NCBI RefSeq assembly: GCF_029267515.1 | Contig: NZ_JAJUIS010000005.1 | Coordinates: forward strand, 186,001-250,000 | DNA: 64,000 nucleotides | Reading direction: 5' to 3' | From: Seleniivibrio woodruffii | GTDB taxonomy: Bacteria; Chrysiogenota; Deferribacteres; Deferribacterales; Geovibrionaceae | Shown here: piece after piece, positions 7,105 through 24,941 of the stretch | How positions within the stretch are numbered: the stretch's first letter is position 1 | How the letters are laid out: each line of letters opens with the position of its first letter | Program-made: the position numbers and the translations under genes | Notes under the pieces: model-generated | Told to the model about the DNA's origin: nothing | Databases searched by the model: none | Seen by the model: only the letters and a program-made list of their open reading frames with translations

Positions 7105-7116
7105 TACGAGGTGTCT

Positions 7117-7818
7117 ATGCGTCTTGCGGCATATGTGAACTCCGAAAATATCATTACGGGGTTAAAACAGGCAGGAAGCGTTAAGCTCTATGACAGGGAT
7201 GAACAGGACTGGAACGAAATAGCTTATTTCGACATGGATGTGAACGGGGCGGAAGACCTTGAACATCTCCAGTCCATTATAAAAGGTACTGTGGCGCAGT
7301 TTGAAAACTGCTCCATCCTCATTGCAGAGGATATGACGGGCGTTATGAACGCCATCCTCGACAGCGTGGGTATAAAGACTTGGAAATCCGAAGGGAACGT
7401 ATACGACGTTCTGGACTACGTCGCCGCGGAAGAGGAACGGGAGCTTCTTGAATCCATGGCGGTTGCGCCGGAACCGGTCTTACAGGGAAGCGAATGTGCG
7501 GGCAAATTCCACATAAATCTTGTGGAAACGCTTAAAACGTTCACCAAGCTGAACTCAAGGGAGATACTTCTGCCGTTCATGATGCGCGGAGGGTATAAAA
7601 GCCTTGAGATAATCTGTGAACACATTCCGCGCTGGCTGGAAAACGACGCAGAGAAACTGAACGTCACCATACACTCTAAAACCCTCAGTAAAAACGGGAT
7701 AAGGGTGGTCGTGGTGCCGAAAGACGGCGGAGCGTCCGCCTGTTCATCATGCGCCCCTTCTGTTCCGCTCAGCTCATGCGGCGGCGGAAGCAGACGCAAA
7801 GGAGGCTGCTGTGGTTGA
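7117..7818 (+). CDS. anfO: Iron-only nitrogenase accessory protein AnfO
   Basis: A 233-residue protein that matches AnfO, an accessory protein encoded downstream of anfHDGK and needed for full diazotrophic growth on Fe-only nitrogenase in other bacteria; its biochemical job is unknown. The N-terminal half begins MRLAAYVN, and the second half contains NSREILLPFMMRGGY. The C-terminus is cysteine- and glycine-rich (CSSCAPS, then SSCGGGSRRKGGCCG), possibly metal-binding. I prefer ATG 7117 over GTG 7111 because GAGG lies at 7108-7111, a workable distance only from the later codon. It overlaps the next gene by 8 bases. Confidence 0.85.
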   Translation: MRLAAYVNSENIITGLKQAGSVKLYDRDEQDWNEIAYFDMDVNGAEDLEHLQSIIKGTVAQFENCSILIAEDMTGVMNAILDSVGIKTWKSEGNVYDVLDYVAAEEERELLESMAVAPEPVLQGSECAGKFHINLVETLKTFTKLNSREILLPFMMRGGYKSLEIICEHIPRWLENDAEKLNVTIHSKTLSKNGIRVVVVPKDGGASACSSCAPSVPLSSCGGGSRRKGGCCG

Positions 7819-8374
7819 TAACTATTCCAGAGACCATAGGCTCTATTTCGCCTATGGAGCTGATATGCTTGATAAATTCATAAAAACCAGATGCTTTGCA
7901 CCGGAATTTGTTGCGGCGGCAAAGCTGACAGGTTTCAGACTCGCCTTCTTCGGCTATTCCCACATATGGGACGGCGCACAGGAAACTCTTGTGCCCGACG
8001 CAAAAGAGGAAGTATGGGGTGCGGTCTACAGAATGTCGTCATACGACGGACAGGAGATGGACGCATATCAGGATGTGAGACTTGACGGGGCTGGGCAGTA
8101 TTTCCACTATCCGGTCGTTGTGACAGACGCCGCAGGAAACGAATATTACCCTCTTATGTACCGTAAGAATATACTCGGAGTGGAAATGCTCGCCTCCAAG
8201 CCCTATATGGACATCATGATTGCCGGAGCTGCTGAAAAAGGACTGCCGGAAAACTATATAGAAAGACTTAAAAGCAGAAACACCAGAATACCGAAATATG
8301 ACGTTCCGCTGCCCACAATGCCCAGACGGGTTGAGTGTGCCGGATGCGACGACCTTCTTAAAAAGATAGTCTGA
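7811..8374 (+). CDS. Gamma-glutamylcyclotransferase-like (AIG2/GGCT fold) protein
   Basis: A 187-residue protein with the GGCT nucleotide-like opening motif FAYGADML (family pattern YGSNL) and a later VWGAVYRMSSYDGQEMDAYQ, which carries the usual Glu region, so it may open or cyclise gamma-glutamyl amines. It starts at GTG 7811 inside the end of anfO (8-base overlap, same operon), so translation is probably coupled. Cys residues sit near the C-terminus (VECAGCDD). GGCT proteins act on glutathione or gamma-glutamyl amino acids; why one is in an anf operon is unknown. The weaker YGAD in place of YGSN leaves the activity uncertain. Confidence 0.7.
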   Translation: MVDNYSRDHRLYFAYGADMLDKFIKTRCFAPEFVAAAKLTGFRLAFFGYSHIWDGAQETLVPDAKEEVWGAVYRMSSYDGQEMDAYQDVRLDGAGQYFHYPVVVTDAAGNEYYPLMYRKNILGVEMLASKPYMDIMIAGAAEKGLPENYIERLKSRNTRIPKYDVPLPTMPRRVECAGCDDLLKKIV

Positions 8375-8449
8375 GAGATAGCGTCGTAGCTAAAGCTCCC
8401 CGCGAAGACAATTATTCGTCTCTGCGAGCGTAGCGTGGCAGTCTCATCA
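8375..8449. repeat. Palindromic intergenic repeat, copy 2, between convergent genes
   Basis: This stretch aligns with the element at 5069-5147: it starts GAGATAGCGTCG, has GCGAAGACA in the middle and ends GGCAGTCTCATCA (copy 1 ends GGCAATCTCATCA). It fills the gap between the last anf gene and the 3' end of draT. Its hairpin may act as a two-way terminator. Confidence 0.6.
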
Positions 8450-9235
8450 ACGCATACGTTTAACGCGGTATTCACCTCCTATTATCATATATTCGTTTTC
8501 GCCCTTGAGGATGCTGCCCGGCAAAAGTCCGCTGTAGTAAAATATCTTTGAGGGCGGAACGAAAGTGCGCCACACTGTGCGCCCGAACTCCCATGCCCTT
8601 TCGGATTCGTCGGTGAAAGACACCAGATTATTAAGACGAACGATTTGCTCCCGTCCGCCGGACTCTTCCAATATTTCATATTCTTCCGCATCGTGGGTTC
8701 CCCTGAACAGCGTGAAGAGTTCCGGACGGGGGCGAAGTTTACGCAGTTCGTACTGGCAGTATTCATACAAAAGGTCGAGCTGGGAATCGATGGCGCTGGT
8801 GTGCACGCTGCCGTTCATAGCATCTGTCATATAGCTGAAATATTCTTCCGAAGAAACATCCTCTATGCAGGCTTTATGGTAAGTCGGGCTGATGCCCATA
8901 CGTCTTTCAACCCAGTGTTTCAGCACCGCTCCCGCTATGGAGTTTGAATCTATCATCCATCCTTTCAAAAACCGCATATAGCTGTTGCGGATGCTCATCC
9001 GTGCCGCATCGGTGGTCTGTTCCTCCCAGTGGTGCAGGTGGAACCGCACCGACATATAGTCCATGAAAAACTGCGCACGCTCATCCCTGTTGCCGATGGT
9101 GTTCAGTTTTGCGAACAGAAAGCGGTTGTTCTCCTTTACACCCTGAATCTCTATGGTCTGAGGATTTTCGTTGAAATGCCTCGAAGCTATGACCCACGGC
9201 GGCAGGTTGCAGTAGTTGAAAGACCCGTATCTCAG
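8447..9235 (-). CDS. draT: NAD(+)-dinitrogen-reductase ADP-ribosyltransferase DraT, apparent CTG start
   Basis: DraT inactivates the Fe protein by ADP-ribosylating one arginine (Arg100 of AnfH here). The C-terminal half is typical: LFRGTHDAEEY, RLNNLVSFTDESERAWEFG, KIFYYSGLLPGS and KGENEYMIIGGEY. The first ATG (9064) would give only 205 residues and lose the conserved N-terminus, which the same frame encodes upstream (FNYCNLPPWVIASRHFN). No ATG, GTG or TTG precedes that region in frame before a stop. The CTG at 9235-9233 overlaps the anfA stop as CTGA and has AGGA seven bases upstream, giving 262 residues, the usual DraT length. No draG is present in the window. Confidence 0.85.
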   Translation of the reverse strand: MRYGSFNYCNLPPWVIASRHFNENPQTIEIQGVKENNRFLFAKLNTIGNRDERAQFFMDYMSVRFHLHHWEEQTTDAARMSIRNSYMRFLKGWMIDSNSIAGAVLKHWVERRMGISPTYHKACIEDVSSEEYFSYMTDAMNGSVHTSAIDSQLDLLYEYCQYELRKLRPRPELFTLFRGTHDAEEYEILEESGGREQIVRLNNLVSFTDESERAWEFGRTVWRTFVPPSKIFYYSGLLPGSILKGENEYMIIGGEYRVKRMR

Positions 9236-10857
9236 CGGAAAGTCCTGTAGTCTATTTTATATTTCGCAAGCCGGAGTCCGAATATCCTGCGCGTAACCCC
9301 AAGTTCCTCCGCCGCTTCGGATATGTTGCCGCTGTGAGCTTTCAGGGCTTCCGCCAGCATTTCATACTCCACTGCGGCAAGTTTCGCCTCCAGACCGCCC
9401 TGAGAAGCCGTATCGGAAAGCACAGGTTTCTGGAGCGATGGCGGAAGGTTATACCCGTGAATGACTTCGTCCTCGGACAGTATCACAGCGCGCTCAATTG
9501 CATTCTCAAGCTCGCGCACATTGCCGGGCCAGTGATAGCTCATCAGCATATTGATGGCAGGCGTGGAGATGCGTTTGACCTTCTTTTTCTGTTCCTTCGA
9601 ATAACAGGCTACAAAATGATCGGCAAGAATGATTATATCGCTGCCCCTGTCCCGCAGGGGCGGAATGATTATCGGAAAGATGTTCAGACGGTAGTACAGG
9701 TCCTCGCGGAAGGTGCCGTTTGTAACCATATCCGAAAGATTGCGGTTTGTGGCGGCTATGATGCGGATATCCACCTTTATCGGCTTGTTGCTGCCCACAC
9801 GCTCGAAGGTCTTTTCCTGAAGCACACGAAGCAGTTTTGCCTGCATTGCGAGTGAAAGTTCGCCCACCTCGTCAAGAAATATCATGCCGCCGTCCGCCTC
9901 TTCGAAACGTCCTATGCGGGGAGCTACAGCACCCGTGAACGAACCCTTTTCGTGTCCGAAAAGTTCGCTCTCAATGATGTTTTCAGGCAGCGCCGCACAG
10001 TTGAATTTTATGAAAGGACCGTCCGCTATGGGACTGTTATAATGTATCGCTCCGGCAACAAGCTCTTTGCCCACGCCGCTTTCGCCAAGGATAAGCACTG
10101 TGGTCTTAGTGGAGGCTATTTTGCCTATATAATCGTAAACATCTGTCATAGCTTTTGAATTGCCGATAATATTCGATGGTCTGAACCGCTTTTTAAGAGC
10201 GTCGGAAAGGCGTTTGTTCTCCCTTTCCAGCATTGGTTTGTCAACGTTCTCCATGAGATAGAGGTCAACCACGGGGGCTATCACCCCTGCGAAGGTGGAG
10301 AGTATCTCAACATCCTGCTCAAGGAGTTTTTTGCTGTCGTAAATCCGTTCTGCGCTGATGGTTCCAAGCACCTTCTGCCCGCGTTTTATGGGTACACAGA
10401 TAAATGACAGCTCCTGATCCAACCCGCATTTAAGCTCGCGGGTGCGATGGAGAAATTCCGGTTCGTCGCTTACACGGGTGAGGATTATCGGCTTGCCCGT
10501 CTCAGCAACCTTTCCCGTGACTCCTTCGCCCATATTGTAAACGCCTTTGGACTCCTCCGTTTCTGTCAGCCCGAAACTGTCGTGAAGAAAGATACGTCCC
10601 GTGCGCTGGTGGCACAGGCATATCATCCCGCAGACCATCTTCATTTCGCGTTTCATTATGCGGCGCATGATTATGAGTGTGTGTGAGAGGTCGGAACTCT
10701 CGGCTATGACCCTGCTCATCTGATAGAGCAGAGGAAGAACTTTCGCGCGGCACTCGTGGCTTTTGCACTTGTTCAGGGTGTCCACATGAGCCTTTATAAT
10801 CTGACCTGTATTGTTTTCAAAAGCAGCCTGAGTGCTCTGTTTATTCCCGCATGGCAT
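9232..10857 (-). CDS. anfA: Sigma-54-dependent activator AnfA (NifA/VnfA family)
   Basis: A 541-residue enhancer-binding protein: a short N-terminus with Cys3, Cys31 and Cys36 (KCKSHEC), a GAF domain (about 45-195), an AAA+ domain (about 228-460) with Walker A GESGVGKE, sigma-54 contact loop GSFTGA and LDEVGEL, and a C-terminal Fis-type helix-turn-helix (about 495-540). VnfA and AnfA of Azotobacter have N-terminal cysteines that bind an Fe-S cluster; a similar sensor role is possible but the spacing differs. AAGGA precedes the ATG. It lies next to the anf operon, convergent with it, and its stop overlaps draT. It should act on the sigma-54 promoter at 2216. Confidence 0.88.
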   Translation of the reverse strand: MPCGNKQSTQAAFENNTGQIIKAHVDTLNKCKSHECRAKVLPLLYQMSRVIAESSDLSHTLIIMRRIMKREMKMVCGMICLCHQRTGRIFLHDSFGLTETEESKGVYNMGEGVTGKVAETGKPIILTRVSDEPEFLHRTRELKCGLDQELSFICVPIKRGQKVLGTISAERIYDSKKLLEQDVEILSTFAGVIAPVVDLYLMENVDKPMLERENKRLSDALKKRFRPSNIIGNSKAMTDVYDYIGKIASTKTTVLILGESGVGKELVAGAIHYNSPIADGPFIKFNCAALPENIIESELFGHEKGSFTGAVAPRIGRFEEADGGMIFLDEVGELSLAMQAKLLRVLQEKTFERVGSNKPIKVDIRIIAATNRNLSDMVTNGTFREDLYYRLNIFPIIIPPLRDRGSDIIILADHFVACYSKEQKKKVKRISTPAINMLMSYHWPGNVRELENAIERAVILSEDEVIHGYNLPPSLQKPVLSDTASQGGLEAKLAAVEYEMLAEALKAHSGNISEAAEELGVTRRIFGLRLAKYKIDYRTFR

Positions 10858-11107
10858 TGAGTTTTCCTTGTTCTGCTGTTTAGGGTTTTAATCAGGCGAT
10901 GGGCGCAAATCTATGTATATGTTAATATCTTGCAGTATCTTTCGTGTGTCAACACTCATTTTGTTTATAAAAACGACGCAATATACTTCTAAATAATGGG
11001 TTATTCCTTATGTGGCTGATGATGCTGCAATGTTTTATTATAAAACCGAATATGCAATAATGAAAATAATAATGACAGGAAACAATGCCGTCTGAAATGC
11101 CTTTAAT

Positions 11108-11926
11108 ATGAACCTGTTTATACCGCCTGTGGTGGTGATAATCCTTATTCTGGTTGCTTCTGTCTGGACTGCCCGCTCACTGCTGAAACCGCTTTATAAA
11201 CTGTCTGAAGCCGCAGAAACTCTTGGCAGGGAACGCACTTTGACTCCGATACCAGAAATGGTTATTCCGGAATATAAAAAAATAGCGGACGCTTTCGGCA
11301 AAATGCAGATACAACTGAGCCGCTTCGTTGACGAACGCACAAATATGCTCGCGGCAATCTCACACGACCTGCGCACACTGCTGACCAGAACACGCCTGCT
11401 CACTGAAAATATAAAAGAAGAACAGAATAAAAAACAAATACTCGCAAGCCTTTCCGATATGGAAACAATGATAAGGGAATATCTTCTCTTCGCCAGAGAG
11501 GACGCATCGCAGGAAGCATATGTGACACTTATCAGGATGCCGGAAATGATGTCGAATATTCCGGCGCGGAACACGCACAGCTTGTCTGTCAGCCGATGGC
11601 AATGAAAAGAGCGCTGACAAACGTCATCGAAAACGGATGCAGATACGGCGAAAGCGTGCGGGTACATCTTAGCGACAACGGCGATTTTATATCTGTTCTG
11701 GTGAAAGACAACGGGCTTGGTATCCCCCCCCCATCTGACAGAACAGGCGTTTCTCCCTTTCAGGCGCCTTGATACCTCCAGAAACAGAGATATCGGCGGG
11801 ACAGGACTTGGGCTTGAGATAACCAAAGATATCATTCACGCCCACGGAGGCGAGATAAAACTGGAAAATGCTCCGGAAGGCGGACTTGAAGTAAAAATCA
11901 CACTGCCCAAATCAAATTTGAAATAA
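11108..11926 (+). pseudogene. Decayed EnvZ-like sensor histidine kinase
   Basis: Three pieces in different frames together make the C-terminal part of an EnvZ-type kinase. The first (11108-11605) has a membrane helix, HAMP region and HisKA box (ISHDLRTLL, where Pro is normal before LT). After a shift near 11525-11540 the frame holds KRALTNVIENGCRYGESV and the G1 box DNGLGIP. A run of nine C at 11724-11732 then shifts frame again to RLDTSRNRDIGGTGLGLEI and the C-terminus ending at 11926. The first transmembrane segment and sensor domain are absent. No partner response regulator is adjacent. The C run could be a sequencing error, but the first shift and the missing N-terminus point to true decay. 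Confidence 0.85.
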
Positions 11927-11940
11927 CGGATATACACTTT

Positions 11941-13173
11941 CTACCATCTCTCTATATTGCAGTTTATCCAGAGGTTTACCAGATTAACGGCACCGCGGAA
12001 ACCCATGAACGGCGGTTCGAAAGGGTGCAGATGCCACGATCTGTCGGGATACGATATCTGCATGGAAAGGCTTCTTCCCGCCCATTCCAGTATCTCACCG
12101 CTGGACATGAAAAGCCCGTCCTTCAAACCTTCGACAGCAGGTATCCACTTCTCTTCAGAATAATAAGGCAGCTCATCTGTTCCCATATCGGGGCTGTCGC
12201 ACCAGCATACGCCCTTATTAAATCCCATCTCACGGCATCCGAAAGACAGTATCCCCTCCACGATGTCCGCGTGTGCGCCGAGATGAAGGGTAACCTCTTC
12301 CATATGCGACCGCGACATATGTCTGAAGCGGGGCATAACCGGTTCCAGCATTGAGCGGGCAATTCCCCTTTCCTTTTCTACAAACGCCCTGTCGAAAGCG
12401 CTGCCAAGCACCCTTTCTATCTCCTCAAGCCATTCCGCAGTTCCGTCGATACCGTAAGGACGGTGCAGGATATACGGCGTACCGTACTTTCTCTGAAGGT
12501 ATTTCGCCGCCGCCTCACCCTCCCGTCTGATAACAAGATTTACATGCGCCCCGCCCATCCGTTCTATATCCTCAATACAGGTGCCGGATGTCAGCACACA
12601 CAGCGGCTTAATCCCGAAAGCGCCTTCAACTGCGCGTATGGTCTCCGCCGCGTCCGCCTGAAAACGGAACAGGTCTGCGCATGAACCTATTATGTTAAAT
12701 GTCGGTTCCGGAGTTTTTCCAACTTCCGCCGGAATATTTTTCACCAGAGTCAGCAGGGCATTTTTAACCCCGTCGTGCTGATTGACATTAAATCCTCCGT
12801 GTCCGAAAGGTATCATCATGACTTCTGGGTGTTCCTGCTGAAGCTCGTCACAAAGGGCGCGCAGGTCGGTTCCTATGACCTCCGGCACTGCGGACGGCAG
12901 AAAAAATATCACTTTGGGACTGTCATTCTTTATGATGTTTGCTACGGTATGTTCAAGCCGTTCCGTACCTCCGAGTGCTATATCGGTTTCGTCTATATGG
13001 GTGGAATAAAGCCTGCAAAGGTCGTTTACGCCTCCGTGTTTCAGCGTCACGCCGCTGTAAAGCATATGCCCCATACAGCCGAACTCCACAAGGGCGGCAT
13101 TTTTTATGGTTGAGAGTGTCCACAGAGTTCCCATTCTGCCGGACGGTATCGGTTTAAACCTGAGAAGACCCAT
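11941..13173 (-). CDS. Nitrogenase component 1-like protein, beta (NifK/NifN-like) subunit of an uncharacterised reductase
   Basis: A 410-residue member of the nitrogenase component 1 family. It has one cysteine in the P-cluster zone, Cys33 (EFGCMGHM). The first and third P-cluster cysteines are missing; the third position reads FLPSAVPEVIGTD where NifK has TTC. One cysteine here plus three in the partner is the NifEN arrangement. ATG 13173 follows GGGGGA; ATG 13194 would overlap the upstream gene. The C-terminus (SYPDRSWHLHPFEPPFMGFRGAVNLVN) matches the family's usual end. Last gene of the uptake-reductase operon. It could be a subunit acting on an imported compound, or less likely a cofactor scaffold. 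Confidence 0.8.
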   Translation of the reverse strand: MGLLRFKPIPSGRMGTLWTLSTIKNAALVEFGCMGHMLYSGVTLKHGGVNDLCRLYSTHIDETDIALGGTERLEHTVANIIKNDSPKVIFFLPSAVPEVIGTDLRALCDELQQEHPEVMMIPFGHGGFNVNQHDGVKNALLTLVKNIPAEVGKTPEPTFNIIGSCADLFRFQADAAETIRAVEGAFGIKPLCVLTSGTCIEDIERMGGAHVNLVIRREGEAAAKYLQRKYGTPYILHRPYGIDGTAEWLEEIERVLGSAFDRAFVEKERGIARSMLEPVMPRFRHMSRSHMEEVTLHLGAHADIVEGILSFGCREMGFNKGVCWCDSPDMGTDELPYYSEEKWIPAVEGLKDGLFMSSGEILEWAGRSLSMQISYPDRSWHLHPFEPPFMGFRGAVNLVNLWINCNIERW

Positions 13174-13174
13174 C

Positions 13175-14413
13175 TTATTCCCCCGTAACTTCAAGTATTC
13201 TTTTAAGAATATTTACGGTGCGCCCGTATCCAGTCTGACCGTAAAAATCATACATATCCGGAACGTATTTCATATCTGTTTTAAGAAAATATCCCATGCA
13301 GATGTCAGGATTAAGTTCTTTAATGAGCTTTTCATCCTCTGCGATATTCGTTATCCGGCAGACGGGCGGATCGTATCCGGCATCTTTTATCTTACGGGTA
13401 TGTGCGCTGTCGGCGGAGTAATACTCTTCAATGTGCAGAAGAAGCGGCACCATGCCGATTTCTGTCAGATAAGCCGCCAGAGGCACGGGCATGTCTATCC
13501 TCTGTGAAAATACGAAGCTCATGCCTTTAAGTCTTTCCTCCGCTTTCGCCTGAATATTTTCCGCCTGCCGTTTCTCTTCATCAAACCTGCCGTCTGGCTC
13601 ATATCCTGCCGCGCGTGCAATATCGCCATACGCCCTGTCTATATCCGAAGGGGCATATTTATCGTGCAGAGCTATGAATGGAACGCCGAACTCCCTCTCC
13701 ATACGCACCGCCAGAGGCTGAGCAAACGGTGACAAAACAACGTTAAGCGCAGCGTCGGGAGCCTGACGGAAATCGTCCAGCGACGCGCCGGGTGCAAGAT
13801 ATCTCAGTTTCAGTTCTTTTGATTCAAGGTATCCGGTAACGGCGGGTTCGGGTATATGCTCCTCAAAGGGGGATCTGCCGAGGACATTTATCCTCCTGCT
13901 GTCCGTTTCACACCTGTCCATAAGCGAAGCCATAGCCTCCATGGTTTTCCACGAACCGGGGGGATAGCTTACGTTCTTGAACTGACCGAGCATCACAAAA
14001 GTAACCTGCGCTTTCAGTTCAGGCTGTATCTCATGTATCAGTCCTTCCATATCCTCGCCGATAAGCTCCGGTATGCAGGTTCCGATTATCAGTATAGCTT
14101 CCGCTCCGGCTCTGTCCATTTTCCGCAGGGCATCCGCCACTCCTTCGCGGCATCCGAACACAACCTCATTGGAATCTATCACATAAAGCCAGTGCAGTTC
14201 CCCGTTTCTGCCTTCCGGCAGAGGGCTGAAAAGTCTGGAATGTGTGGCGCACTCAGGGGTTCCCACCAGGAGGGACGAAAGCCCCCGGATGTCCTCAACT
14301 ATCACCGACGCTATCCTCATGGGGCAGTGGTTGCCCGGAAATACCGCAGGTGAAAGAAATTTTATACCGCTGCCGGATTTGACGGCTGAAAGCCTCTTCA
14401 AATGATCAAACAT
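13175..14413 (-). CDS. Nitrogenase component 1-like protein, alpha (NifD/NifE/BchN-like) subunit
   Basis: A 412-residue component 1 protein starting at ATG 14413, which overlaps the NifH-like stop by 8 bases; a longer frame upstream only reads over that gene. Cys30 (GNHCPM), Cys55 (GTPECATH) and Cys113 ([12 protein letters not shown]) are spaced 25 and 58, close to NifE (25, 62) and BchN (25, 61), so a [4Fe-4S] cluster with one ligand from the partner is likely. Where nitrogenase has its cofactor cysteine, this protein reads [15 protein letters not shown], with Ser and no Cys. It is therefore not a nitrogenase in the usual sense. Its substrate is unknown; context suggests something brought in by the adjacent importer. 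Confidence 0.82.
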
Positions 14414-15161
14414 CGCCGCCGCCCTCCAGCAGAAGTTTTGCAAGCGTTCTGTAATGCTGTGCCATTTCAGAATCGGGGAAAGCCTCCACAACGGTCTTTC
14501 CGTCCGCCTCCGCCTGCTGGACAAGCTGATTTCTCGGCATACGGTAAAGCACGGGCGTGTCTATCTCCGCCGCCGCCCTGTCAACAAGTTCCTGTTCCCC
14601 TTCAAAATTCTTGGCGTTCAGAATCAGCCCGCGAAGGGAAGCGTAGCCCCGTTTCCCGAAGCTGCGCACGGCATGGGATATATTCGCGGCGGCGTAAAGA
14701 GACATCATCTCTCCTGACGTAACGATACATACGTCTTCCGCATAGCCGCCTCTGATGGGCATTGCGAAGCCTCCGCAGACCACGTCCCCAAGAACGTCAT
14801 ACATCACCACGTCCGGCTTATAAACGCCGAAAGCGTCCAATTCCTCCAGCTTTTCAAATGCGGTGATTATACCCCTTCCGGCACAGCCGACACCGGGTAT
14901 GGGACCGCCAGATTCGACACAGAGAACCCCCGTAGTGCTCTTTACAACAAGGTCTTCAAGTTCAGGGTCGCCCTTTTTTCTGAGCACCTCAAGAACAGTG
15001 GGAATGTTCTGTCCTCCGGTCAGATTTCTTGAAGAATCCGCTTTGGGGTCACAGCCTACCTGAAGCACAGTCAGCCCCATGGACGCCATAGCCGCCGATA
15101 TATTTGATACGGTGGTGGATTTTCCTATCCCCCCTTTGCCGTATACAGCTATCTTTTTCAT
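14406..15161 (-). CDS. NifH/BchL-like ATP-dependent reductase protein
   Basis: A 251-residue Fe protein homologue with P-loop GKGGIGKS (8-15), Cys93 (GVGCAGR) and Cys129 (DVVCGG) for the intersubunit [4Fe-4S] cluster, and Arg96 at the DraT target position. It differs widely from AnfH at 2301-3128 and is shorter. Its ATG overlaps the stop of the ABC ATPase gene by 4 bases, and its own stop overlaps the NifD-like gene, so the reductase and the importer are translated as one unit. It should feed electrons to the 13175-14413 / 11941-13173 pair. Known relatives act in tetrapyrrole synthesis (BchL, CfbC) or sulphur scavenging (MarH); which is nearest needs a tree. Confidence 0.88.
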
Positions 15162-15961
15162 GAATTATCTCCTTCGTCCCTTATCAGGTCATATGAAATG
15201 CAAGCCGGACGACCAGAACGCGGATCGGTAACTATCTCCGCATGAACGCGGAATGTCTTTCTCAGTACGTCCGCGGTCATAACCTCTTCCGGTGTGCCGT
15301 ATCTGACTATATTTCCGCCGCGTATGGCTATCATGTGATCTGAAAAGCGCGCAGCAAGGTTCAGGTCATGCAGCACCATCGCAATGGTGCAGTTCTGTTC
15401 GCGGTTCAGCCTGTAAAGAAGTTCAAGCACCTCGAGCTGATATGACATATCAAGATAGGTGGTGGGTTCGTCCAGCAGGATAAGGTCGGTCTGCTGGGCA
15501 AGCGCCATCGCAATCCACACCCTCTGCCTCTGTCCGCCGGACATATTATCAACCGCCGTGGTCTCAAGGTCGCTGAGTTTCGTTACCTCAAGCGCCCATT
15601 CCACAATCTTTCTGTCCTCCGGTTTCATCGTGCCGAACCCCCGCTGGTGGGGATATCTGCCGTATGAAACCAGATCGCCCACCGTCAGCCCTGACGGAGC
15701 CTGCGGCGACTGGGGCAGTATAGCCATCCTAATGGCTATCTCTTTCGCAGACAGCCTGCTTATATCCTTTCCGTTCAGATACACCATGCCGTTTCTGGGC
15801 TTCATAATGCGTCCCAAGGTCTTGAGAACTGTGGATTTGCCGCAGCCGTTGGGACCTATAATGGAGGTGATCATCCCTTTGGGTATGTTCAGGTCAAGCC
15901 CGTCAACAACCAGCTTATCCTCATATGCGGCACTCAGATTTTCAGCAGTGATGCTGTTCAT
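15158..15961 (-). CDS. Iron-siderophore-type ABC importer ATPase (FecE/FepC-like)
   Basis: A 267-residue ATPase of the FecE/FhuC/BtuD family: Walker A GPNGCGKS, signature [17 protein letters not shown], Walker [13 protein letters not shown] and the switch histidine in [15 protein letters not shown]. It powers uptake of iron chelates or cobalamin-like compounds through the two permeases just upstream. ATG 15961 is preferred because AAGGAG lies eight bases before it; the TTG at 15967 is too close. Its stop overlaps the NifH-like start (ATGA), the join between transporter and reductase genes. Confidence 0.9.
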
Positions 15962-15973
15962 AAACAAAACTCC

Positions 15974-16999
15974 TTACTTTCTTGTCAGCAGCCATATGAA
16001 ATACGGCGCACCTAAAACTGCGGTCACGATTCCGGTGGGTATCTCCGAAGGCTGAACGATAACCCTTGCAAAGGTATCCGCAGCCGAAACTGTCACCGCC
16101 CCCGTGAGAGCGCAGACAGGCAGAAGCACCGAGTGTTTGGGACCCACGAGTCTCCTTGCCATATGAGGCGCTATCAGCCCGGCAAAACTTATATTCCCGC
16201 TCACAGCGACGCATGATGCGGCAAGGGCAACCGCACAGAAAAGCAGTATCCGCTGCTCTTTTTCAACATCCACACCAAGACCGCAGGCAGCACAACTGTC
16301 CAGACTCAGTACGTCCAGCACCCTCGACCTGTAAACGACGAATGGAATAAGAACCATCTGCCACGGCAGAAGAGCCAGAACATATTTCCAGCCGGAACCC
16401 CATATGCTCCCCGCCTGCCACATAGCTACAAAGTCGAAACGGGTTTCATCAAGATTTATAACCAGAACAGTGGTAAGGGCGAATATACCTGCCTGAACGG
16501 CAATGCCCGTCAGTATAAGCCGGATCGGGGACGTCCCCTCGCCCTTTTTAAAAGCGAGCAGATATATCAGCACAGAAGTCATTCCCGCACCCGCAAGCGC
16601 GAGAACAGGAAGTGTGAATACAGCAAGAAACGTTGCCGTGCCGAAAAAAAGAACGTAAAGCAGAACGGCAAGCCCCGCGCCCGCGTTTATACCCAGAAGT
16701 CCGGGGTCTGCCAGCGGATTCTTGGTTACGTCCTGAATTATACAGCCCGAAAGTGCCAGCCCTGCGCCAGCCATTGCCGCCAGAATCACCCGCGGCAGCC
16801 GGAACTGATACAGTATGAGATTCTCCGCGTCCGTGCCTCCGCCGAAAAGTATCCTGAAGGTATCGGAAGGAATCAGCTTCGTATATCCTGTGTTCATGCT
16901 GACAACAAGAGCCGCAAGCAGCAGCAGGATACCCGCCGCCGCAACCAGAGTATTGCGCATGAATATCTTTCTTTTGTATATCTGATAAGCAGTCTGCAT
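15974..16999 (-). CDS. FecCD-family ABC permease, second subunit
   Basis: A 341-residue polytopic permease of the FecCD/BtuC family with family motifs LRLPRVILAAMAGAGLALSGCI, QDVTKNPLADPGLLGINAGAG and SFAGLIAPHMARRLVGPKH. About nine or ten membrane segments. Its ATG shares one base with the stop of the preceding permease gene (TGATG), so the two are coupled and likely form a heterodimer like FepD/FepG. Substrate: an iron chelate or a related large metal compound. Confidence 0.9.
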   Translation of the reverse strand: MQTAYQIYKRKIFMRNTLVAAAGILLLLAALVVSMNTGYTKLIPSDTFRILFGGGTDAENLILYQFRLPRVILAAMAGAGLALSGCIIQDVTKNPLADPGLLGINAGAGLAVLLYVLFFGTATFLAVFTLPVLALAGAGMTSVLIYLLAFKKGEGTSPIRLILTGIAVQAGIFALTTVLVINLDETRFDFVAMWQAGSIWGSGWKYVLALLPWQMVLIPFVVYRSRVLDVLSLDSCAACGLGVDVEKEQRILLFCAVALAASCVAVSGNISFAGLIAPHMARRLVGPKHSVLLPVCALTGAVTVSAADTFARVIVQPSEIPTGIVTAVLGAPYFIWLLTRK

Positions 17000-17997
17000 C
17001 AGGTCGCCCTCTTCTGTCTGCGCGACAGATACAGGAAAAAAGGAACGCCTATCAGTGCCGCAAAAGCACCGACAGGTGTTTCCGCGGGCGGATTAAGAGT
17101 TCTCGACGCAAAATCGGCAAGCACCATCATAACCGCTCCGAGAATTGCGGAGACAGGAATGATACGGCGGTAATCCGCACCCGTGATGAATTTTGCCAGA
17201 TGAGGAAAAATCAGTCCCACAAATCCCACAGCGCCCACCACAGCAACGGATGCACCGGCAAGAACCGTTACGCAGACGAAAGACACCAGCCGGACGAATG
17301 AAACGTTCAGACCAAGCCCCTTCGCAACTTCCTCACCGAAGCTGAGAACTGTTATGGAACGTGAAAAAAGCATGGACGTTAAAAGCGCGGCAAGTATGCA
17401 GGGCGCAAGTACGGCGACCTGTCTCCAGCCTACGCCCGCCACGCCGCCCACCGTCCAGAACATTATGTCCTGCGCAACGTTGAAATACAGAGCGATGCCC
17501 TGACTGAGAGCTGCCAGAAGAGCTGTCACCGCCGCTCCTGCCAGCACAATCCTCATGTGTGTTGCTCCGCCTCTGCGCATGGAGGCAACGAAATTAACCA
17601 GAAACGCTCCGGCTGCTGCTCCCGCAAAGGATGCAAAGACTATATAAACGTATCCGGCAGCGGGGAAAAAAGCAAAACAGAGCGCAACGGCAAATCCGGC
17701 TCCTGCGTTAAGTCCAAGCAGTCCCGAATCGGCAAGGGGATTGCCTGTGGTTCCCTGCATTACGGCTCCGGCAACTGACAACGCCGCCCCCACAAGAGCG
17801 CTTGCCACAACCCGCGGCAGCCGCAGGTCTGCAACCACAAGGTGCCGCATATCCGTCGGGTCGAAATGTAAAAGTGCCGACCTGACCACGGAAAAAGGGA
17901 TATCAGAACTTCCGCCGGAAACCGACAGAAACATCAGCGAAACGAGAACCGCTATCCCTGCCGAAAATATAAAAAACGATATAAAGAATTGCTTCAA
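16999..17997 (-). CDS. FecCD-family ABC permease, first subunit
   Basis: A 332-residue permease with the same family marks: RLPRVVASALVGAALSVAG, QGTTGNPLADSGLLGLNAGAG and VGFVGLIFPHLAKFITGADY. It overlaps the substrate-binding protein gene by 4 bases (ATGA). Two different permeases plus one ATPase and one binding lipoprotein is the FepBCDG layout of catecholate siderophore uptake. Confidence 0.9.
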   Translation of the reverse strand: MKQFFISFFIFSAGIAVLVSLMFLSVSGGSSDIPFSVVRSALLHFDPTDMRHLVVADLRLPRVVASALVGAALSVAGAVMQGTTGNPLADSGLLGLNAGAGFAVALCFAFFPAAGYVYIVFASFAGAAAGAFLVNFVASMRRGGATHMRIVLAGAAVTALLAALSQGIALYFNVAQDIMFWTVGGVAGVGWRQVAVLAPCILAALLTSMLFSRSITVLSFGEEVAKGLGLNVSFVRLVSFVCVTVLAGASVAVVGAVGFVGLIFPHLAKFITGADYRRIIPVSAILGAVMMVLADFASRTLNPPAETPVGAFAALIGVPFFLYLSRRQKRAT

Positions 17998-18911
17998 CGG
18001 GAATATACCTTCAGAATATTTTCCGCTGTGAGGCGCAGTGCCAGCGGTCCGAACGAATTGAGTGAGTCGTCGAAATAGAAGACTTTGCCGTTCTTGACGG
18101 CATTAAGTGAACGCCAGACGGACTGACCTTTCAGAAATTCCGCATACGCACCCGCCCGTGCCTCACTGTCCTGAAAAGCTATATAATCTGGATTCATCTG
18201 TGCGAGAGATTCAAGGGACACAGGTGTGTAATCGTCGGGATAGCCTTTTGGCTTCGATATGCCGAAAAGCTCGTAATATTCTTTATTTGCTCTGGAGACA
18301 AGGGTTTTGCCGTCGGTGCGGAACAGTGCAAAGGTTTTGTCCCTGTGGGCGGAAAGTCTCTCTCCGGCAGCTTTTATGATACTCTCAGTCTCAGCTATAA
18401 AACGTTCCGCAAATTCCTCTCTGCCAGCGACCTGTGCACACAGCCTTGTCTGGTGCTGCCACGGCGCGTAGAAATCTATCTGAACCACTGGCGCAATCTG
18501 CACCAGTCTGTCGTATACCCTGTCCGCATGTCCTTTGAACGTGACGATAACGTCGGGGTTCGCCGCAAGCACCGCCTCGGCATTTATCTCACGCGCGCTG
18601 CCGAGGTCCGTTATCTCGGCGGTGCCTCTGTAAGGCTTTAATGTCTCCGCCGTATTTATAACGTCCATCGCGTTGCCCGCAGACGCGCCCGTTGACGCAA
18701 CGGGGGGCTTGCCAAGAGCGAAGAAATACTCAAGATACATGGCGTGAAGGATTACTATTCTCTTCGTGTCCGCTTTTAAAACTATGGACTTTCCCGTATC
18801 ATCCACAACGGTTCTGGTCTGAACCTTCTCTTCCTTTTCAGCCTGATTCTTAGTACATCCCGCAAGCAGTATGACAAGCGGCAGAACCGCCCCAATAATA
18901 AATTTTTTCAT
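17994..18911 (-). CDS. Substrate-binding lipoprotein of the siderophore-type ABC importer
   Basis: A 305-residue class III binding protein. The signal peptide ends in a lipobox (ILLAG-C at Cys19), so it is membrane-anchored in the periplasm. The body has TRTVVDDTGKSIVLKADTKRIVIL at the start of the first lobe, the standard opening of iron-chelate binding proteins, and ANPDVIVTF and MNPDYIAFQD as interlobe markers. First gene of the importer-reductase operon. The ligand is probably a ferric siderophore; haem, cobalamin or another tetrapyrrole cannot be excluded. Confidence 0.88.
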   Translation of the reverse strand: MKKFIIGAVLPLVILLAGCTKNQAEKEEKVQTRTVVDDTGKSIVLKADTKRIVILHAMYLEYFFALGKPPVASTGASAGNAMDVINTAETLKPYRGTAEITDLGSAREINAEAVLAANPDVIVTFKGHADRVYDRLVQIAPVVQIDFYAPWQHQTRLCAQVAGREEFAERFIAETESIIKAAGERLSAHRDKTFALFRTDGKTLVSRANKEYYELFGISKPKGYPDDYTPVSLESLAQMNPDYIAFQDSEARAGAYAEFLKGQSVWRSLNAVKNGKVFYFDDSLNSFGPLALRLTAENILKVYSR

Positions 18912-18932
18912 CGTAACTCCGCAGTCATGATA

Positions 18933-19796
18933 TCAGAGAGCACTTTTCATGGGAATTGACCCATCCTGAAACGCACATGGATTATTCCTGAACAGTTCAC
19001 GCAATCCGCTGGGAGAAACGCCCGTGCGCTTTCTGAAAATCCTGCTGAAATAAAGCTGATCGGGATAGCCGACACTTTTTGCGACACCGCCTATGGCGCC
19101 GTCGGTGGTTATCAGAAGCTCTTTCGCCCTGTTCAGGCGGTATTCGGTGATATAATCAGCGGGTCCCATGCCGGAAAATTTGGTAAAAACGTAAAAGAGT
19201 CTGTTCTCGTTCACATCGTTCAGTTCCGCCAGCTTCCGCACGCTGAGAACGTCCATATAATGTTCGTGGATATAGGATGAAACACACTCGAAAAGCCCCA
19301 GAGAACCGTCGCTCTGGCGGTTGTTTGCACAGACGAAAACCTCTTCAAGCACACAGCGGAAAAGCATTTCCGTGCGGAATACCGAAATAGCTCCCGGCTG
19401 GTTATAGGTACGCCATAAACGCCAGAGAAGGTCTGTCAGCCGCGGGCTCTGACCTGTCACCAGTTCAAAATCCCTATTCGAAGGCGCGGGTTCCTTATGT
19501 TTTTTCCCTTCGGTTTCATAGAAAACGGAGATATACTCCCACTTTTCATTGCCGAGCACTCTCTTTTCAAGATACATATCCGGTCCGCCGTGTATGACGT
19601 TCCCCTGACGCACAATGTAGGGTGTGCCGTTGAATCTGAACTGAGCCTTTCCAGACAAGGGGAACAGAAATCCAGGTACGGGAGCGGTCATCTGACTATG
19701 CACCGTGTTCGGCTTTATAGTGTAATGGTGCACGCCCACGACCTTAAAAGACAACCCAGCGTAATATCTTATCAGTGAATTAAGCTCTATCTCCAT
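18933..19796 (-). CDS. AraC-family transcriptional regulator
   Basis: A 287-residue regulator with an N-terminal cupin-like ligand-binding domain (about 30-110) and a C-terminal AraC double helix-turn-helix (about 180-280; LSVRKLAELNDVNENRLFYVF and GGVAKSVGYPDQLYFSRIFRK). Such regulators often control siderophore genes and sense the siderophore itself. I placed the start at ATG 19796: the longer frame from a TTG at 19856 runs through a terminator hairpin. It sits 21 bases upstream of the importer operon in the same direction. Confidence 0.85.
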   Translation of the reverse strand: MEIELNSLIRYYAGLSFKVVGVHHYTIKPNTVHSQMTAPVPGFLFPLSGKAQFRFNGTPYIVRQGNVIHGGPDMYLEKRVLGNEKWEYISVFYETEGKKHKEPAPSNRDFELVTGQSPRLTDLLWRLWRTYNQPGAISVFRTEMLFRCVLEEVFVCANNRQSDGSLGLFECVSSYIHEHYMDVLSVRKLAELNDVNENRLFYVFTKFSGMGPADYITEYRLNRAKELLITTDGAIGGVAKSVGYPDQLYFSRIFRKRTGVSPSGLRELFRNNPCAFQDGSIPMKSAL

Positions 19797-19821
19797 TTTA
19801 CCGTCCGCGGCATCCTCGTTA

Positions 19822-19877
19822 TAAAAAAAGTCCCGGCGTCCCGACGCAGCGGACAAACCGCCGCGCCCGAGGACGCC
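19822..19877 (-). terminator. Rho-independent terminator after the TonB-dependent receptor gene
   Basis: Read leftwards, GGCGTCC (19877-19871) pairs with GGACGCC (19841-19835), with further pairing inside, and a run of seven T (A at 19823-19829) follows. It lies 60 bases beyond the receptor stop codon, separating that gene from the AraC gene. Confidence 0.7.
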
Positions 19878-19936
19878 AAACTTACCTACAGGGGATACCT
19901 TTTATTTTCAGCCTCTTACGGCTGTATTTTCTTTTA

Positions 19937-21994
19937 TCAGAATCTGACGGTCATATCCGCCGCAACCCTGAGCCCCTCATCCACCATCCAGTTGCCGTCC
20001 AGACCTCCCGTACGGGTGCGGTTGTCGATGGCTACCTTTTTGTCGGTGATGTTCAGTACGGACATTTTAAATGTCACATATTTATTAAGGTCATAAGCGC
20101 CGCCTATGTCATATGTGGCTGTTCCGGGGCGTGTCCTGCTGCTCATCGCATAGTTTCTGAACCCAGACCAGTATTGCTTGCTGACGACGTTTGCACGGGC
20201 AAACAGGCTGAGAGGCTTAACTGGCTGCCAGTCCAGTTTTGCGTTGAACATGTGTTCCGGAGTCTTGTCCAGAGGCTTGCCGTCAAGAGAACTGCCGTCG
20301 AATGCGGGTTCACCGCCTTTGCGCTCGGAATCCGTATATGTGTAGTTTGAGGTCAGTTTGAGTTTCTTTGTGAGAGGTGCCGCGAAAGAAACCTCCGCAC
20401 CTCTGATGGTCACCTCGTCAATGTTGTCGTATTCGTAGATATAGTTGTTGTATTGGTCTTTTTCACCTGTGGCATAGCTGGATACCTTGTCTTTGATGTC
20501 GTTGTTGAAAACTGTGAAGCCGAAACTTATCCCGCCCGATTTGTCGTATCTTATGCCTATCTCTTCCGTAAGGCTTGTTTCAGGATCCAGATCGGAACTG
20601 CCGCAAAGCACTCCGGGAGACAACGCTGTGCCGTTGCCTGTGGTCATGCAATAGCCGTCGGTTGTCTGGCGGAGGGTAGGCGCTTTGAATCCGGCAGCAA
20701 CGCCGCCTCTGAGCGTCCAGTCTTTCGCCATTTTATAAACTGCGTAAAGTCTAGGCGTAAAATGGTCGCCGTATCTCTCGTCGTCGTCCATACGCAGACC
20801 CGCTGTCAGCGACAGGTTATCCGTTATAAAATACTCGTCCTCAAGGTACAGGGCATATGCGTCGTTATCCGCTTTGTCAGTGTTTACAGGATAGTTGGCA
20901 AGCGCCGCCTCTTCGCTGATACCTGTGAGTTCTGATTTTATGACCTGCCCGCCGAGGCGCAACGTATTGTTCGCAAAGTTGTACGCCATTCCGGCATCCA
21001 GTACGGTGTTTGTAAGCTCCTGTTTCGATGTGCTCTCAACTCCGCCTGTCCACTTTCTCTGCTCGGCAATCTCCTGGCTGAGGGCAAGGTTTGTAGTCGC
21101 TTTGCCGTATCTGCCGTCGTGTGTAACAGACCAGTGATCACGCGTATGCCTCGTTTCGAGGTCGGCGGCGTTATCGGCAAGGGTTTTGCCGGAGTTCTGT
21201 GTGTACGTCAGCTTTTCGTTGCCTGCCTCAATATTTATATCGTTGCTGCTGTTTGGGGTGATGGATATTTTTCCGGTTAGGTTCTGCTCCTCTTTCCCGT
21301 AGCTTCCGCTTGCATAGGAGTTGGCGTAATATATGTCGTCCTCCATTCTGCTAGCGAGATCGCCGTAGAGCTGTAACCCGACCTTATTTTTAACGACGGG
21401 ACCGCCTACCCAGAACTGCCTGCTGACAGTCTGTCCGTATTCCCCGTCCTTATGCTGAATAGTTCCTAAGGTAAAAGAGCCGTGCCATTCGTCAGGCACT
21501 TTCTTTGTGATGATGTTGATAACGCCGCCCATAGCGTCCGAACCGTAGACAGAGGACATGGGACCTCTGACTATCTCTATCCTCTCAATGGCGTCAAGGG
21601 GCGGTATCATGTTCGCCTGAACACCCGATGTACCTCTGTTCATGGTTTCTCTGCTATTCTGACGTTTCCCGTCAACCATGATAAGGGTGTATTCGCCCGG
21701 CATCCCGCGCAGAACTATGTCCGTTTCGCTCGCCATCCATCCTGTGATGCTCACGCCTTCCACGGTTTTCAGCAGATCTGTGATGGTCGCCGCGGGCATT
21801 TTGGCTATCTCTTCCTTGGTTATGATACTGATACTTGCGGGTGCATCCGCAATGTACTGTTCAAAACCGGTCGCCGTAACAACAACAGGTTTTATCTCCT
21901 GTGCCTCTTCCTCCGCTTTAGCCGTAAGCGGAGAAAGAATCATTGAAACCGCAAGCACGAATCCTCCGGTTTTAAATAAACGCCTCTGCTTCAT
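19937..21994 (-). CDS. TonB-dependent outer-membrane receptor (siderophore or metal-chelate type)
   Basis: A 685-residue receptor: signal peptide (1-26, ending LTAKA), TonB box region EIKPVVVTATGFE, plug domain (about 40-160, with SISIITKEEIAKMPAATITDLL and RIEIVRGPMSSVYGSDAMGGVINIITKK) and a 22-strand barrel ending in Phe. ATG 21994 follows GGAGG five bases upstream; a longer open frame to 22210 crosses the Fur box and is not coding. It stands before the AraC and importer-reductase genes and probably brings the same substrate across the outer membrane. The plug resembles colicin I/catecholate receptors. Confidence 0.9.
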   Translation of the reverse strand: MKQRRLFKTGGFVLAVSMILSPLTAKAEEEAQEIKPVVVTATGFEQYIADAPASISIITKEEIAKMPAATITDLLKTVEGVSITGWMASETDIVLRGMPGEYTLIMVDGKRQNSRETMNRGTSGVQANMIPPLDAIERIEIVRGPMSSVYGSDAMGGVINIITKKVPDEWHGSFTLGTIQHKDGEYGQTVSRQFWVGGPVVKNKVGLQLYGDLASRMEDDIYYANSYASGSYGKEEQNLTGKISITPNSSNDINIEAGNEKLTYTQNSGKTLADNAADLETRHTRDHWSVTHDGRYGKATTNLALSQEIAEQRKWTGGVESTSKQELTNTVLDAGMAYNFANNTLRLGGQVIKSELTGISEEAALANYPVNTDKADNDAYALYLEDEYFITDNLSLTAGLRMDDDERYGDHFTPRLYAVYKMAKDWTLRGGVAAGFKAPTLRQTTDGYCMTTGNGTALSPGVLCGSSDLDPETSLTEEIGIRYDKSGGISFGFTVFNNDIKDKVSSYATGEKDQYNNYIYEYDNIDEVTIRGAEVSFAAPLTKKLKLTSNYTYTDSERKGGEPAFDGSSLDGKPLDKTPEHMFNAKLDWQPVKPLSLFARANVVSKQYWSGFRNYAMSSRTRPGTATYDIGGAYDLNKYVTFKMSVLNITDKKVAIDNRTRTGGLDGNWMVDEGLRVAADMTVRF

Positions 21995-22051
21995 CTTTCC
22001 TCCAGTTTTTTCACCATTGCGCCGCATGTCGCATATCACGACCCGTTGCAT

Positions 22052-22070
22052 GGTATTGAAAATCATTATC
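22052..22070. promoter_or_regulatory. Fur box upstream of the TonB-dependent receptor gene
   Basis: GGTATTGAAAATCATTATC matches the 19-bp Fur consensus at 16 of 19 positions. It lies 58 bases upstream of the receptor start, so iron limitation should induce the receptor. The remainder of 22100-22280 holds no gene I can support. Confidence 0.75.
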
Positions 22071-22285
22071 AACGTCGCAGAGTATACCAAAACGCTGCAC
22101 AGATTGGAATAGCCCCATCCTGAATGAAATATAGACAGTTCCTGAATTATATTTTGCCTGCGATTTTTGAACGGATACCGGACATAAAAGATATTGAGTA
22201 TTAATATCATTATGCTGCTATGGATTTGTTATCAACGAAATCAGCCGTTGTCAACTGTTTTCAGAAATTCAGAAGACGAGCATAA

Positions 22286-22330
22286 AAGAAAACAGCGCAC
22301 CGGACTGACCGTTGCCCGATGCGCCGTACA
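22286..22330 (-). terminator. Probable terminator of the Lol-like / beta-barrel operon
   Basis: Read leftwards, GCGCATCGG pairs with CCGGTGCGC (nine pairs, one G-T) and is followed by TGTTTTCTTTT. It lies about 255 bases beyond the stop of the beta-barrel gene at 22584. The distance leaves room for a long 3' region or for a separate short transcript. Confidence 0.55.
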
Positions 22331-22351
22331 TAAACCAAAAGGAGGCTGGTT

Positions 22352-22730
22352 TATGGGTATAAGACAAAGCTCCGCCAAAATAATTCATGAAGTTCCTATG
22401 GAAATTAAACACAATAATTGTGATAAGTTTCAAATAGTTGCTGATTCTGAAAAATCCGGTTCTCCCTCCGGAATATCAGCTTTGGGTACGCGTCTGAAAA
22501 GATCTCAGCAGGATCTGCGCATTAAGCAGAAAGGCAGAAAAACACTCAGCTTATCAATTTTTATCAATACAGCCAGCTCAGTTTCAGAAATAGTATTTAA
22601 TTTTTATCTCCGCTCTTTTATCCATGGGTTTTTCCCCGAATTCCGTGTTGTTTCCTCCCGAAAGCACATAAGCCTTCAGCTTCAGCTCCAGGTTTGTAAA
22701 TCCTGTATATACCGCTTCAGGAGAAAATGA
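22352..22730 (+). CDS. Possible small protein gene with strong ribosome site (unrecognised)
   Basis: An open frame of 126 codons beginning MGIRQSSAKIIHEVPMEIK. The start has AAGGAGG seven bases upstream, and the start and ribosome site lie in a short hairpin (CATAAACC ... GGTTTATG, 22332-22358), so translation could be controlled by RNA folding. The last 147 bases overlap the 3' end of the opposite beta-barrel gene. I do not recognise the protein. It may be real only in its first 75 or so codons, or may not be a gene; the ribosome site is the main support. Confidence 0.35.
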
Positions 22731-23819
22731 AAAACTGCCGTCGTCAAGATTCGCAGTCAGCACCACAGCCGGTGTGAAATACAGCACGTCAAAAGGTTCC
22801 CTGACAGAAGTTTTCAGATACAGGTAGTTCGTCATCGGGTTATTGCCGGCATAAGGGGACTTTGCCAGAGAAGATGGATTGGTACTGTTTTCCGCAGCTT
22901 CGTAAAAGATATCCATCTCATCTTCCGTATATCCGGTCGATTTATGGAAATACTCCAGAATATATGTGGCATCGTTCTCTGTGAGATACCTCAGCCCCAA
23001 AAGCCAGTTATCCATACAGACAGTCTCATTTCCTCCAAGAGTCATCCTCCTGATATTTTCAGTTCTGCCATATTCTCCGTGAATTTCCAGATTGGTTCGT
23101 ATGTTCCTCGAAAAATCCACTCCGTATCTGCCGTCGGCTGACTCACCGCCAGTAAACATAAGGTCTATGTCGGTATCAAACAGCAGCATATAAAACTTTC
23201 CGGCATAATTCGCCCCGTCTTTCCTGCCAAGAGACCGGTTCATATCATCATTTACGTAATAGAGTGCCTGTATGTAAGAAATATTTTTCAACGCACCGGA
23301 ATAACTTCGGGTAAATTCCGCAGAGGCAATCTGATAGCCCTCCTGCGCATCCTCAGGAGAATCTATATTTTTCGGTCTGTCAAGAAAACCGGCAGGATTA
23401 TAAGCATAGCCCTTGCCCCATTTCATTGTCATTTTTCCGAGGCTGAACCTGAAATCATCCCCAAAATAGCCGATATACTGCTCCATAAATAAAAAGTCGG
23501 TCTCAGTCTCTTCGTCAGGAGACCGCAGATAAACAGTTGATGTTTTCACCGTGTATTTAAGACTTCCGGTTTCATAACCTCCGTTCAGCCTGAAATCTGT
23601 TTTATAATCATAACTTTCCGGTTTTTCCTGATATTTCAGATTATACATGGCAGAATCTTTGTCAAAGCTGTAGATGTTTGAAGAAAACTCAACACTTCCG
23701 TCGAAAGAATACGGTTTTTTCTCTATCTCACTTATATCAAAATCATATTCCCCACCGAAAAGAGCAGGTGCGAAGAAAAGGCAGAGCAGAAACACCCCGC
23801 CTTTCAGATATTTTTTCAT
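22584..23819 (-). CDS. Outer-membrane beta-barrel protein of the Lol-like ABC operon
   Basis: A 411-residue protein with a signal peptide (about 1-21, FAPALFG) and a long series of alternating beta strands ending in YYF, as in outer-membrane barrels. Family not named with certainty; it resembles the barrels encoded beside LolA-like and FtsX-type genes. Markers: FRFSLGKMTMKWGKGYAYNP and NWLLGLRYLTENDATYILEY. Its ATG lies directly after the LolA-like stop (one operon). It may receive or place material that the ABC transporter and LolA-like carrier deliver. Confidence 0.75.
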   Translation of the reverse strand: MKKYLKGGVFLLCLFFAPALFGGEYDFDISEIEKKPYSFDGSVEFSSNIYSFDKDSAMYNLKYQEKPESYDYKTDFRLNGGYETGSLKYTVKTSTVYLRSPDEETETDFLFMEQYIGYFGDDFRFSLGKMTMKWGKGYAYNPAGFLDRPKNIDSPEDAQEGYQIASAEFTRSYSGALKNISYIQALYYVNDDMNRSLGRKDGANYAGKFYMLLFDTDIDLMFTGGESADGRYGVDFSRNIRTNLEIHGEYGRTENIRRMTLGGNETVCMDNWLLGLRYLTENDATYILEYFHKSTGYTEDEMDIFYEAAENSTNPSSLAKSPYAGNNPMTNYLYLKTSVREPFDVLYFTPAVVLTANLDDGSFSFSPEAVYTGFTNLELKLKAYVLSGGNNTEFGEKPMDKRAEIKIKYYF

Positions 23820-24542: not shown

Positions 24543-24548
24543 ACTTAC

Positions 24549-24932: not shown

Positions 24933-24941
24933 ACACCTCTT

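Follow-up and report, generated by a model that had tools for sequence, protein, structure and literature searches.

The window analysed here is a 64,000-nucleotide stretch of the Seleniivibrio woodruffii genome. Seven minus-strand genes lie between positions 18911 and 11941, encoding a siderophore-type substrate-binding lipoprotein (SBP, 17994..18911, PF01497, 96 bits), FecCD permease 1 (16999..17997, PF01032, 304 bits), FecCD permease 2 (15974..16999, PF01032, 321 bits), a FecE-type ABC ATPase (15158..15961, NCBIfam FecE, 309 bits), a NifH-like ATP-dependent reductase of 251 aa (H, 14406..15161, Fer4_NifH PF00142, 308 bits) and two catalytic subunits, the NifD-like D of 412 aa (13175..14413, Oxidored_nitro PF00148, 219 bits) and the NifK-like K of 410 aa (11941..13173, PF00148, 190 bits). 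The ATPase reading frame opens at 15967 with a likely start at 15961, the most likely start of D is 14413 (MFDHLKRL), and the K frame opens at 13194 with a conserved, most likely start at 13173 (MGLLRFK). With the likely starts, the recomputed overlaps were 4 bases between SBP and permease 1, 1 between the permeases, 4 between ATPase and H and 8 between H and D; gaps of 12 and 1 bases separate permease 2 from the ATPase and D from K. The SBP is a distant relative of siderophore-binding proteins, its PDB relatives being YfiY, FhuD, YfmC and FeuA.

Two further minus-strand genes lie upstream: an AraC-family regulator (18933..19856, HTH_18, 68 bits) and a TonB-dependent receptor of the CirA/IreA/FepA (catecholate) type by structure and NCBIfam matches (19937..21994; the frame opens at 22210 and the probable start is 21994). 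Among solved structures the receptor was closest to CirA (316 bits), then PirA (208) and FepA (186), and it scored 583 bits with NCBIfam IreA, under the IreA cut-off. A Fur-box-like site, TGAAAATCATTATCA, at 22057-22071 differs by one mismatch from TGATAATNATTATCA and lies before the likely start of the receptor. The initial annotation had listed these seven genes at these positions, their 4, 1, 4 and 8-base overlaps and 12-base gap, and an AraC regulator, a TonB receptor and a Fur box upstream. All of this was reproduced, with agreement of the Pfam families, and the 1-base gap between D and K is added here. Just past the end of K, a plus-strand ORF at 11108-11605 resembles a sensor histidine kinase truncated to its HAMP/HisKA part and is possibly a remnant.

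A NifH-type ATPase and two PF00148 subunits, all scoring well over their cut-offs, place the H, D and K proteins (the HDK unit) in the nitrogenase superfamily. Maximum-likelihood phylogeny of D- and K-type subunits united 14 D proteins and 14 K proteins taken from HDK loci in one group each (100/99 and 100/100); 13 H proteins likewise grouped (97/99). The D and K groups were apart from NifDK, AnfDK, VnfDK, NifEN, BchNB, BchYZ and two Mar/Isr-like sets (L036 and L037) that served as stand-ins for the Mar/Isr group. The deep placement is unsure, since several reference branches are long. The phylogeny, proposed in the initial annotation as a check, put H, D and K outside every sampled characterised clade, CfbCD being set apart by profile score alone. 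With the NCBIfam profiles, H reached 331 bits with CfbC (cut-off 402) and 329 with NifH, below both cut-offs; D and K reached 26 and 31 bits with CfbD (cut-off 268), and the BchB score was 100 bits against a cut-off of 490. Nif/Anf/Vnf membership was rejected on the NCBIfam cut-offs, the separate clade, the absent cofactor cysteine and the incomplete K cysteines; BchLNB and BchXYZ on separate clades and scores far under the cut-offs; Mar/Isr on the missing cofactor cysteine, the tree placement and the lack of a radical-SAM B among the scanned neighbour ORFs; and CfbCD on CfbC and CfbD cut-offs that were not reached, profile score being the sole comparison. Within a known superfamily, the HDK proteins make up a new clade for which a new role is predicted, CfbCD again having been compared by profile score only. 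No description of the HDK-importer unit was found in the open-access literature searched.

A sister system was found on plasmid pTS1 of Treponema saccharophilum (L032:8220-14516), where a divergent H-D-K precedes genes for an SBP, a single permease and an ATPase. Its D branches as sister to the HDK clade (98/97) and its H probably does too (93/78), while its importer is closer to the BtuC and haem types. The plasmid also carries a second, divergent SBP gene (6860-7972), and the first cluster cysteine of its D appears to be replaced by Gly.

The D and K alignments were compared at the positions that hold the P-cluster or NB-cluster in relatives, where the cluster ligands of DPOR (BchLNB/ChlLNB) and COR (BchXYZ) sit as well. 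D keeps all three cluster cysteines (C30, C55 and C113). K keeps only the middle one, C33, whose position is Asp in BchB and Cys in BchZ; the first and third are absent. D and K together do not have all six P-cluster cysteines of nitrogenase and show, by sequence, the 3+1 ligand pattern for a single [4Fe-4S] cluster of the DPOR/COR type, with three D-type cysteines and one K-type ligand position. For Mar, cluster ligands at corresponding positions have been published (PMC12552129). Neither D nor K has the FeMo-type cofactor cysteine (NifD C275), and BchN and BchY lack it too; it occurs in NifD, AnfD, NifE and MarD and in the D proteins of the Mar/Isr-like sets. The AF2 model of K (pLDDT 82) gave its best TM-score, 0.83, to DPOR BchB (3aer_D), and that of D (pLDDT 84) matched the superfamily generally; one plasmid row was left out of the alignments used for these predictions. 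The 3+1 pattern, the missing cofactor cysteine and the BchB-like fold of K together make it most likely that the enzyme carries a single [4Fe-4S] cluster without a cofactor and that its substrate binds directly. Outside the cluster positions, C165 and C192 of K and C352 of D are invariant and C323 and C325 of K nearly so; it is our guess that these five might take part in metal binding. The invariant cysteines of H include C93 and C129 (cluster) and C37 and C81.

To determine how far the unit is conserved, 84,980 species genomes were scanned for relatives of D, which gave 22 loci, and one more lies on a Sporomusa termitida plasmid. The 23 loci belong to Deferribacterota, Clostridia, Negativicutes and Paenibacillus, with Seleniivibrio, Pelosinus, Anaerospora, Sporomusa, Metaclostridioides, Clostridium, Lacrimispora, Sedimentibacter, Scatolibacter, Paenibacillus and uncultured Clostridia as hosts, lineages that we take to be anaerobic or facultatively anaerobic. 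Two permeases lie directly upstream of H-D-K in 18 of the 23, and AraC genes accompany most relatives. The complete set (AraC, SBP, two permeases, ATPase, H, D and K) is present at 13 loci, counting one whose K is cut by a contig end and others with broken frames. The remainder comprise one locus without AraC and SBP nearby, four without the ATPase gene only, two Paenibacillus loci in which AraC and importer are divergent, two (L023 and L025) with AraC-H-D-K and no importer, and one cut by a contig end. The gene order, which the initial annotation had wanted searched for in other genomes, is therefore conserved rather than unique to one genome, and its recurrence in so many of them argues for more than chance. 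At the four clostridial loci (L016, L017, L022 and L030) the stretch from permease 2 to H yielded no ATPase gene, and their importers may share another ATPase. In L018 the H and AraC frames (8251-8989 and 3027-3849) are each split in two by a frameshift or sequencing error.

The nearest locus to the S. woodruffii unit is L009, with 81% identity in D. Strong matches to the K profile were found in only three of 51 Deferribacterota genomes (two among the five of the genus), with one weak match besides; the distribution of the unit is thus patchy, and transfer from genome to genome is probable. The genes that flank one locus are mostly unrelated to those at another. Conserved downstream genes were sought in the flanks of the relatives and none useful was found, nor did dedicated follow-on catabolic genes recur across the loci examined. 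In Sporomusa, a gene for an esterase of PF00756, the family of siderophore esterases such as Fes, lies 72 bp after K. Near a Paenibacillus unit, L019:5748-7061 encodes a luciferase-like monooxygenase (PF00296) beside a divergent siderophore-type importer, with a homologue in L021. Protein distances correlate at 0.69-0.85 among the importer permeases and ATPase and at 0.62-0.81 among H, D and K, but only moderately (0.3-0.55) between the two modules. This suggests that the modules can be re-partnered. The reductase has probably been paired with more than one importer, and a reaction shared by many iron chelates would be favoured accordingly.

Fur boxes with at most one mismatch were found in the control regions of the unit in the S. 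woodruffii window, L009, L010, L011, L012, L014, L019 and L021, and L031 has a site at two mismatches. Fur boxes thus lie upstream of the unit in 8-9 loci of three lineages, and by this measure the unit appears to be Fur-regulated in the window and eight other loci. The box of L019 (Paenibacillus) is perfect and lies between AraC and HDK, at the AraC end of the intergenic region. Most clostridial loci had no Fur box at the one-mismatch stringency. Five shuffled windows gave no Fur-type site at zero or one mismatch.

The receptors at the units are of siderophore types, CirA-like in S. woodruffii and FemA/BauA-like in Sporomusa, and binding proteins of the enterobactin/dicitrate type occur in relatives. 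The S. woodruffii genome was searched for SIP- and FhuF-type siderophore reductases, with no match. The same genome yielded neither an NRPS condensation domain nor an NIS synthetase, and the siderophores that it uses are therefore probably foreign. Its one PF00756 esterase lies close to a TonB receptor and an SBP (G000:C10:144345-147984), which may be a second siderophore locus that relies on an esterase.

No Rfam family was found near the HDK unit in 20 loci or in positions 8000-26000 of the window. The Sporomusa plasmid carries three cobalamin riboswitches, which lie 12 kb from the unit and before other genes. Cobalamin was rejected as substrate, no riboswitch lying near the unit in those 20 loci or that interval. 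A separate haem operon at 32703-41479 of the window encodes HutW/ChuW (489 bits, cut-off 400) and HutX (173 bits, cut-off 110), together with a haem-like importer and a TonB receptor whose closest match is the haem type; haem was rejected as first-choice substrate in S. woodruffii on the presence of this operon. The region 32703-43523, a probable anaerobic haem uptake and degradation operon, holds flavodoxin-like, HutW/ChuW radical SAM, HutX, SBP, FecCD, ATPase and ABC-2-type genes; TonB- and ExbB-like genes adjoin these, and Fur boxes lie near 42447-42458. From the sequence, the initial annotation had suggested ATP-driven reduction of an imported metal chelate or tetrapyrrole, for instance to release iron or cobalt without oxygen. 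The iron-chelate part of this suggestion is strengthened by the Fur boxes, the receptors, the binding proteins and the lack of SIP and FhuF. Cobalt as the released metal is weakened by the absence of cobalamin riboswitches near the unit in the 20 loci and the 8000-26000 interval, and haem is weakened for S. woodruffii by its HutW/HutX operon.

The initial annotation had also held the reductase to be distinct from the Anf set next door. Anf genes are indeed present within 12 kb of the unit (AnfD 1028 bits, cut-off 874; AnfK 868, cut-off 854; NifH-type reductase 455, cut-off 394) and HDK falls in a separate clade. Another nitrogenase gene set lies on a different contig. An Anf partnership was rejected, as the adjacency is not conserved in the loci of relatives.

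Gene content, conservation, clade, cysteine pattern and Fur boxes are results of the computation; from these we infer the substrate, the electron path and iron as the species reduced. The seven genes, the TonB receptor and the AraC regulator would form an iron-responsive pathway that imports and reduces the siderophores of other microbes. Through the receptor and the SBP-FecCD-FecE transporter, a ferric siderophore would enter the cytoplasm; in S. woodruffii it is probably a catecholate. A ferredoxin or flavodoxin would reduce H. Driven by ATP, H would then deliver low-potential electrons one at a time by way of one [4Fe-4S] cluster, with three D cysteines and one K cysteine as its ligands. 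The substrate would sit directly in the D-K cavity, like protochlorophyllide in DPOR, with no FeMo-type cofactor. Chelated Fe(III) would become Fe(II) and leave the chelate, perhaps with the invariant K cysteines as acceptor, and neither oxygen nor an esterase would be needed.

That the HDK unit carries out an ATP-driven reduction of imported ferric siderophores, releasing iron anaerobically, is a proposal that we judge could go either way. It is favoured by a linkage with FecCD importers and AraC conserved across many lineages, by the upstream Fur boxes, by the 3+1 cysteines with a BchB-like K fold and no cofactor cysteine, by the siderophore-type receptors and the Sporomusa esterase gene, and by a genome lacking SIP and FhuF. 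An ATP-boosted donor also suits the very negative potentials of iron-loaded catecholates, which in the case of enterobactin lie at about -750 mV. Against it stand the confinement of Fur boxes to 8-9 loci, most clostridial loci having none, the moderate correlation between HDK and importer distances, the two loci without importer and the BtuC/haem-like importer of the Treponema sister. The receptor type also differs between genomes, which means that the enzyme either has a broad substrate range or acts on some other substrate that the genomes share. In one alternative, the enzyme would reduce the organic part of the siderophore (such as an aromatic ring, the C=N of an oxazoline or the N-O bond of a hydroxamate), so that the chelator breaks and the iron falls off or the ligand is salvaged. 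The linkage and Fur evidence are equally compatible with this, and the 4Fe-4S-only relatives DPOR and COR reduce ligand double bonds and not a bound metal. The FemA/BauA-type receptors of Negativicutes, whose ligand chemistry is oxazoline or hydroxamate, fit as well. A bond-specific enzyme would, however, need a bond shared by the varied receptors' ligands, and follow-on catabolic genes do not recur near the unit; we consider ligand reduction unlikely.

The Treponema importer and the resemblance of K to BchB also fit an imported tetrapyrrole (haem, a corrinoid, a porphyrin or an F430-like compound), and all characterised cofactor-free relatives known to us (DPOR, COR and CfbCD) act on tetrapyrroles. 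The Fur boxes, the siderophore-type receptors and binding proteins, the lack of a cobalamin riboswitch near the unit and the separate HutW/HutX operon in the window speak against such a substrate, which we hold to be rather improbable. Another metal chelate, a Mo-, V- or Co-siderophore supporting the neighbouring Anf/Nif systems, would account for the nearby Anf genes of S. woodruffii. It is very unlikely, given that this adjacency was not seen in the loci of relatives and the regulation looks Fur-type. Returning to ferric siderophores, we propose more tentatively that a widespread cofactor-free nitrogenase-like clade reduces them, ATP pushing electrons below about -0.7 V onto Fe(III). Anaerobic iron release by this route would be new, and HDK would be the first relative of nitrogenase with iron acquisition as its dedicated role.

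Unlike DPOR and COR, which the unit resembles in its cysteines and K fold, HDK falls in separate clades and is linked to iron-chelate import rather than pigment synthesis. It resembles CfbCD in the nearly equal CfbC and NifH scores of H and in having no NifB partner, but has two different catalytic subunits where CfbCD has one. Nif/Anf/Vnf nitrogenase and NifEN share its superfamily and fold, and differ in the cofactor cysteine, the K cysteines and the clade. SIP- and FhuF-type reductases and Fes-type esterases share the proposed role of freeing iron from imported siderophores, although HDK comes from unrelated protein families. MarBHDK and IsrBHDK are likewise nitrogenase-like HDK systems dedicated to an imported or salvaged compound, and Isr is paired with an ABC importer (PMC12552129, PMC11423573). 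The radical-SAM B partner of both, and the P-cluster and cofactor cysteine of Mar, were not found in the HDK unit.

With this unit, it becomes directly testable by what means strict anaerobes that have no SIP- or FhuF-type reductase obtain iron from siderophores of very high stability. If the proposed role is true, siderophores would be a new substrate class for the nitrogenase superfamily, HDK-type nifH genes should be used with caution as markers of nitrogen fixation, and many genes annotated "NifH" or "nitrogenase component 1" in gut and soil Clostridia that do not fix nitrogen would be accounted for. A published table of iron-related, differentially expressed genes of C. difficile ribotype 078 includes a NifH (J5O10_08590) and an iron ABC permease (J5O10_08600) (PMC11633334). 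The two are ten locus-tag numbers apart, which leaves room for one gene and fits the permease-ATPase-H order, and J5O10_08590 may belong to the HDK clade.
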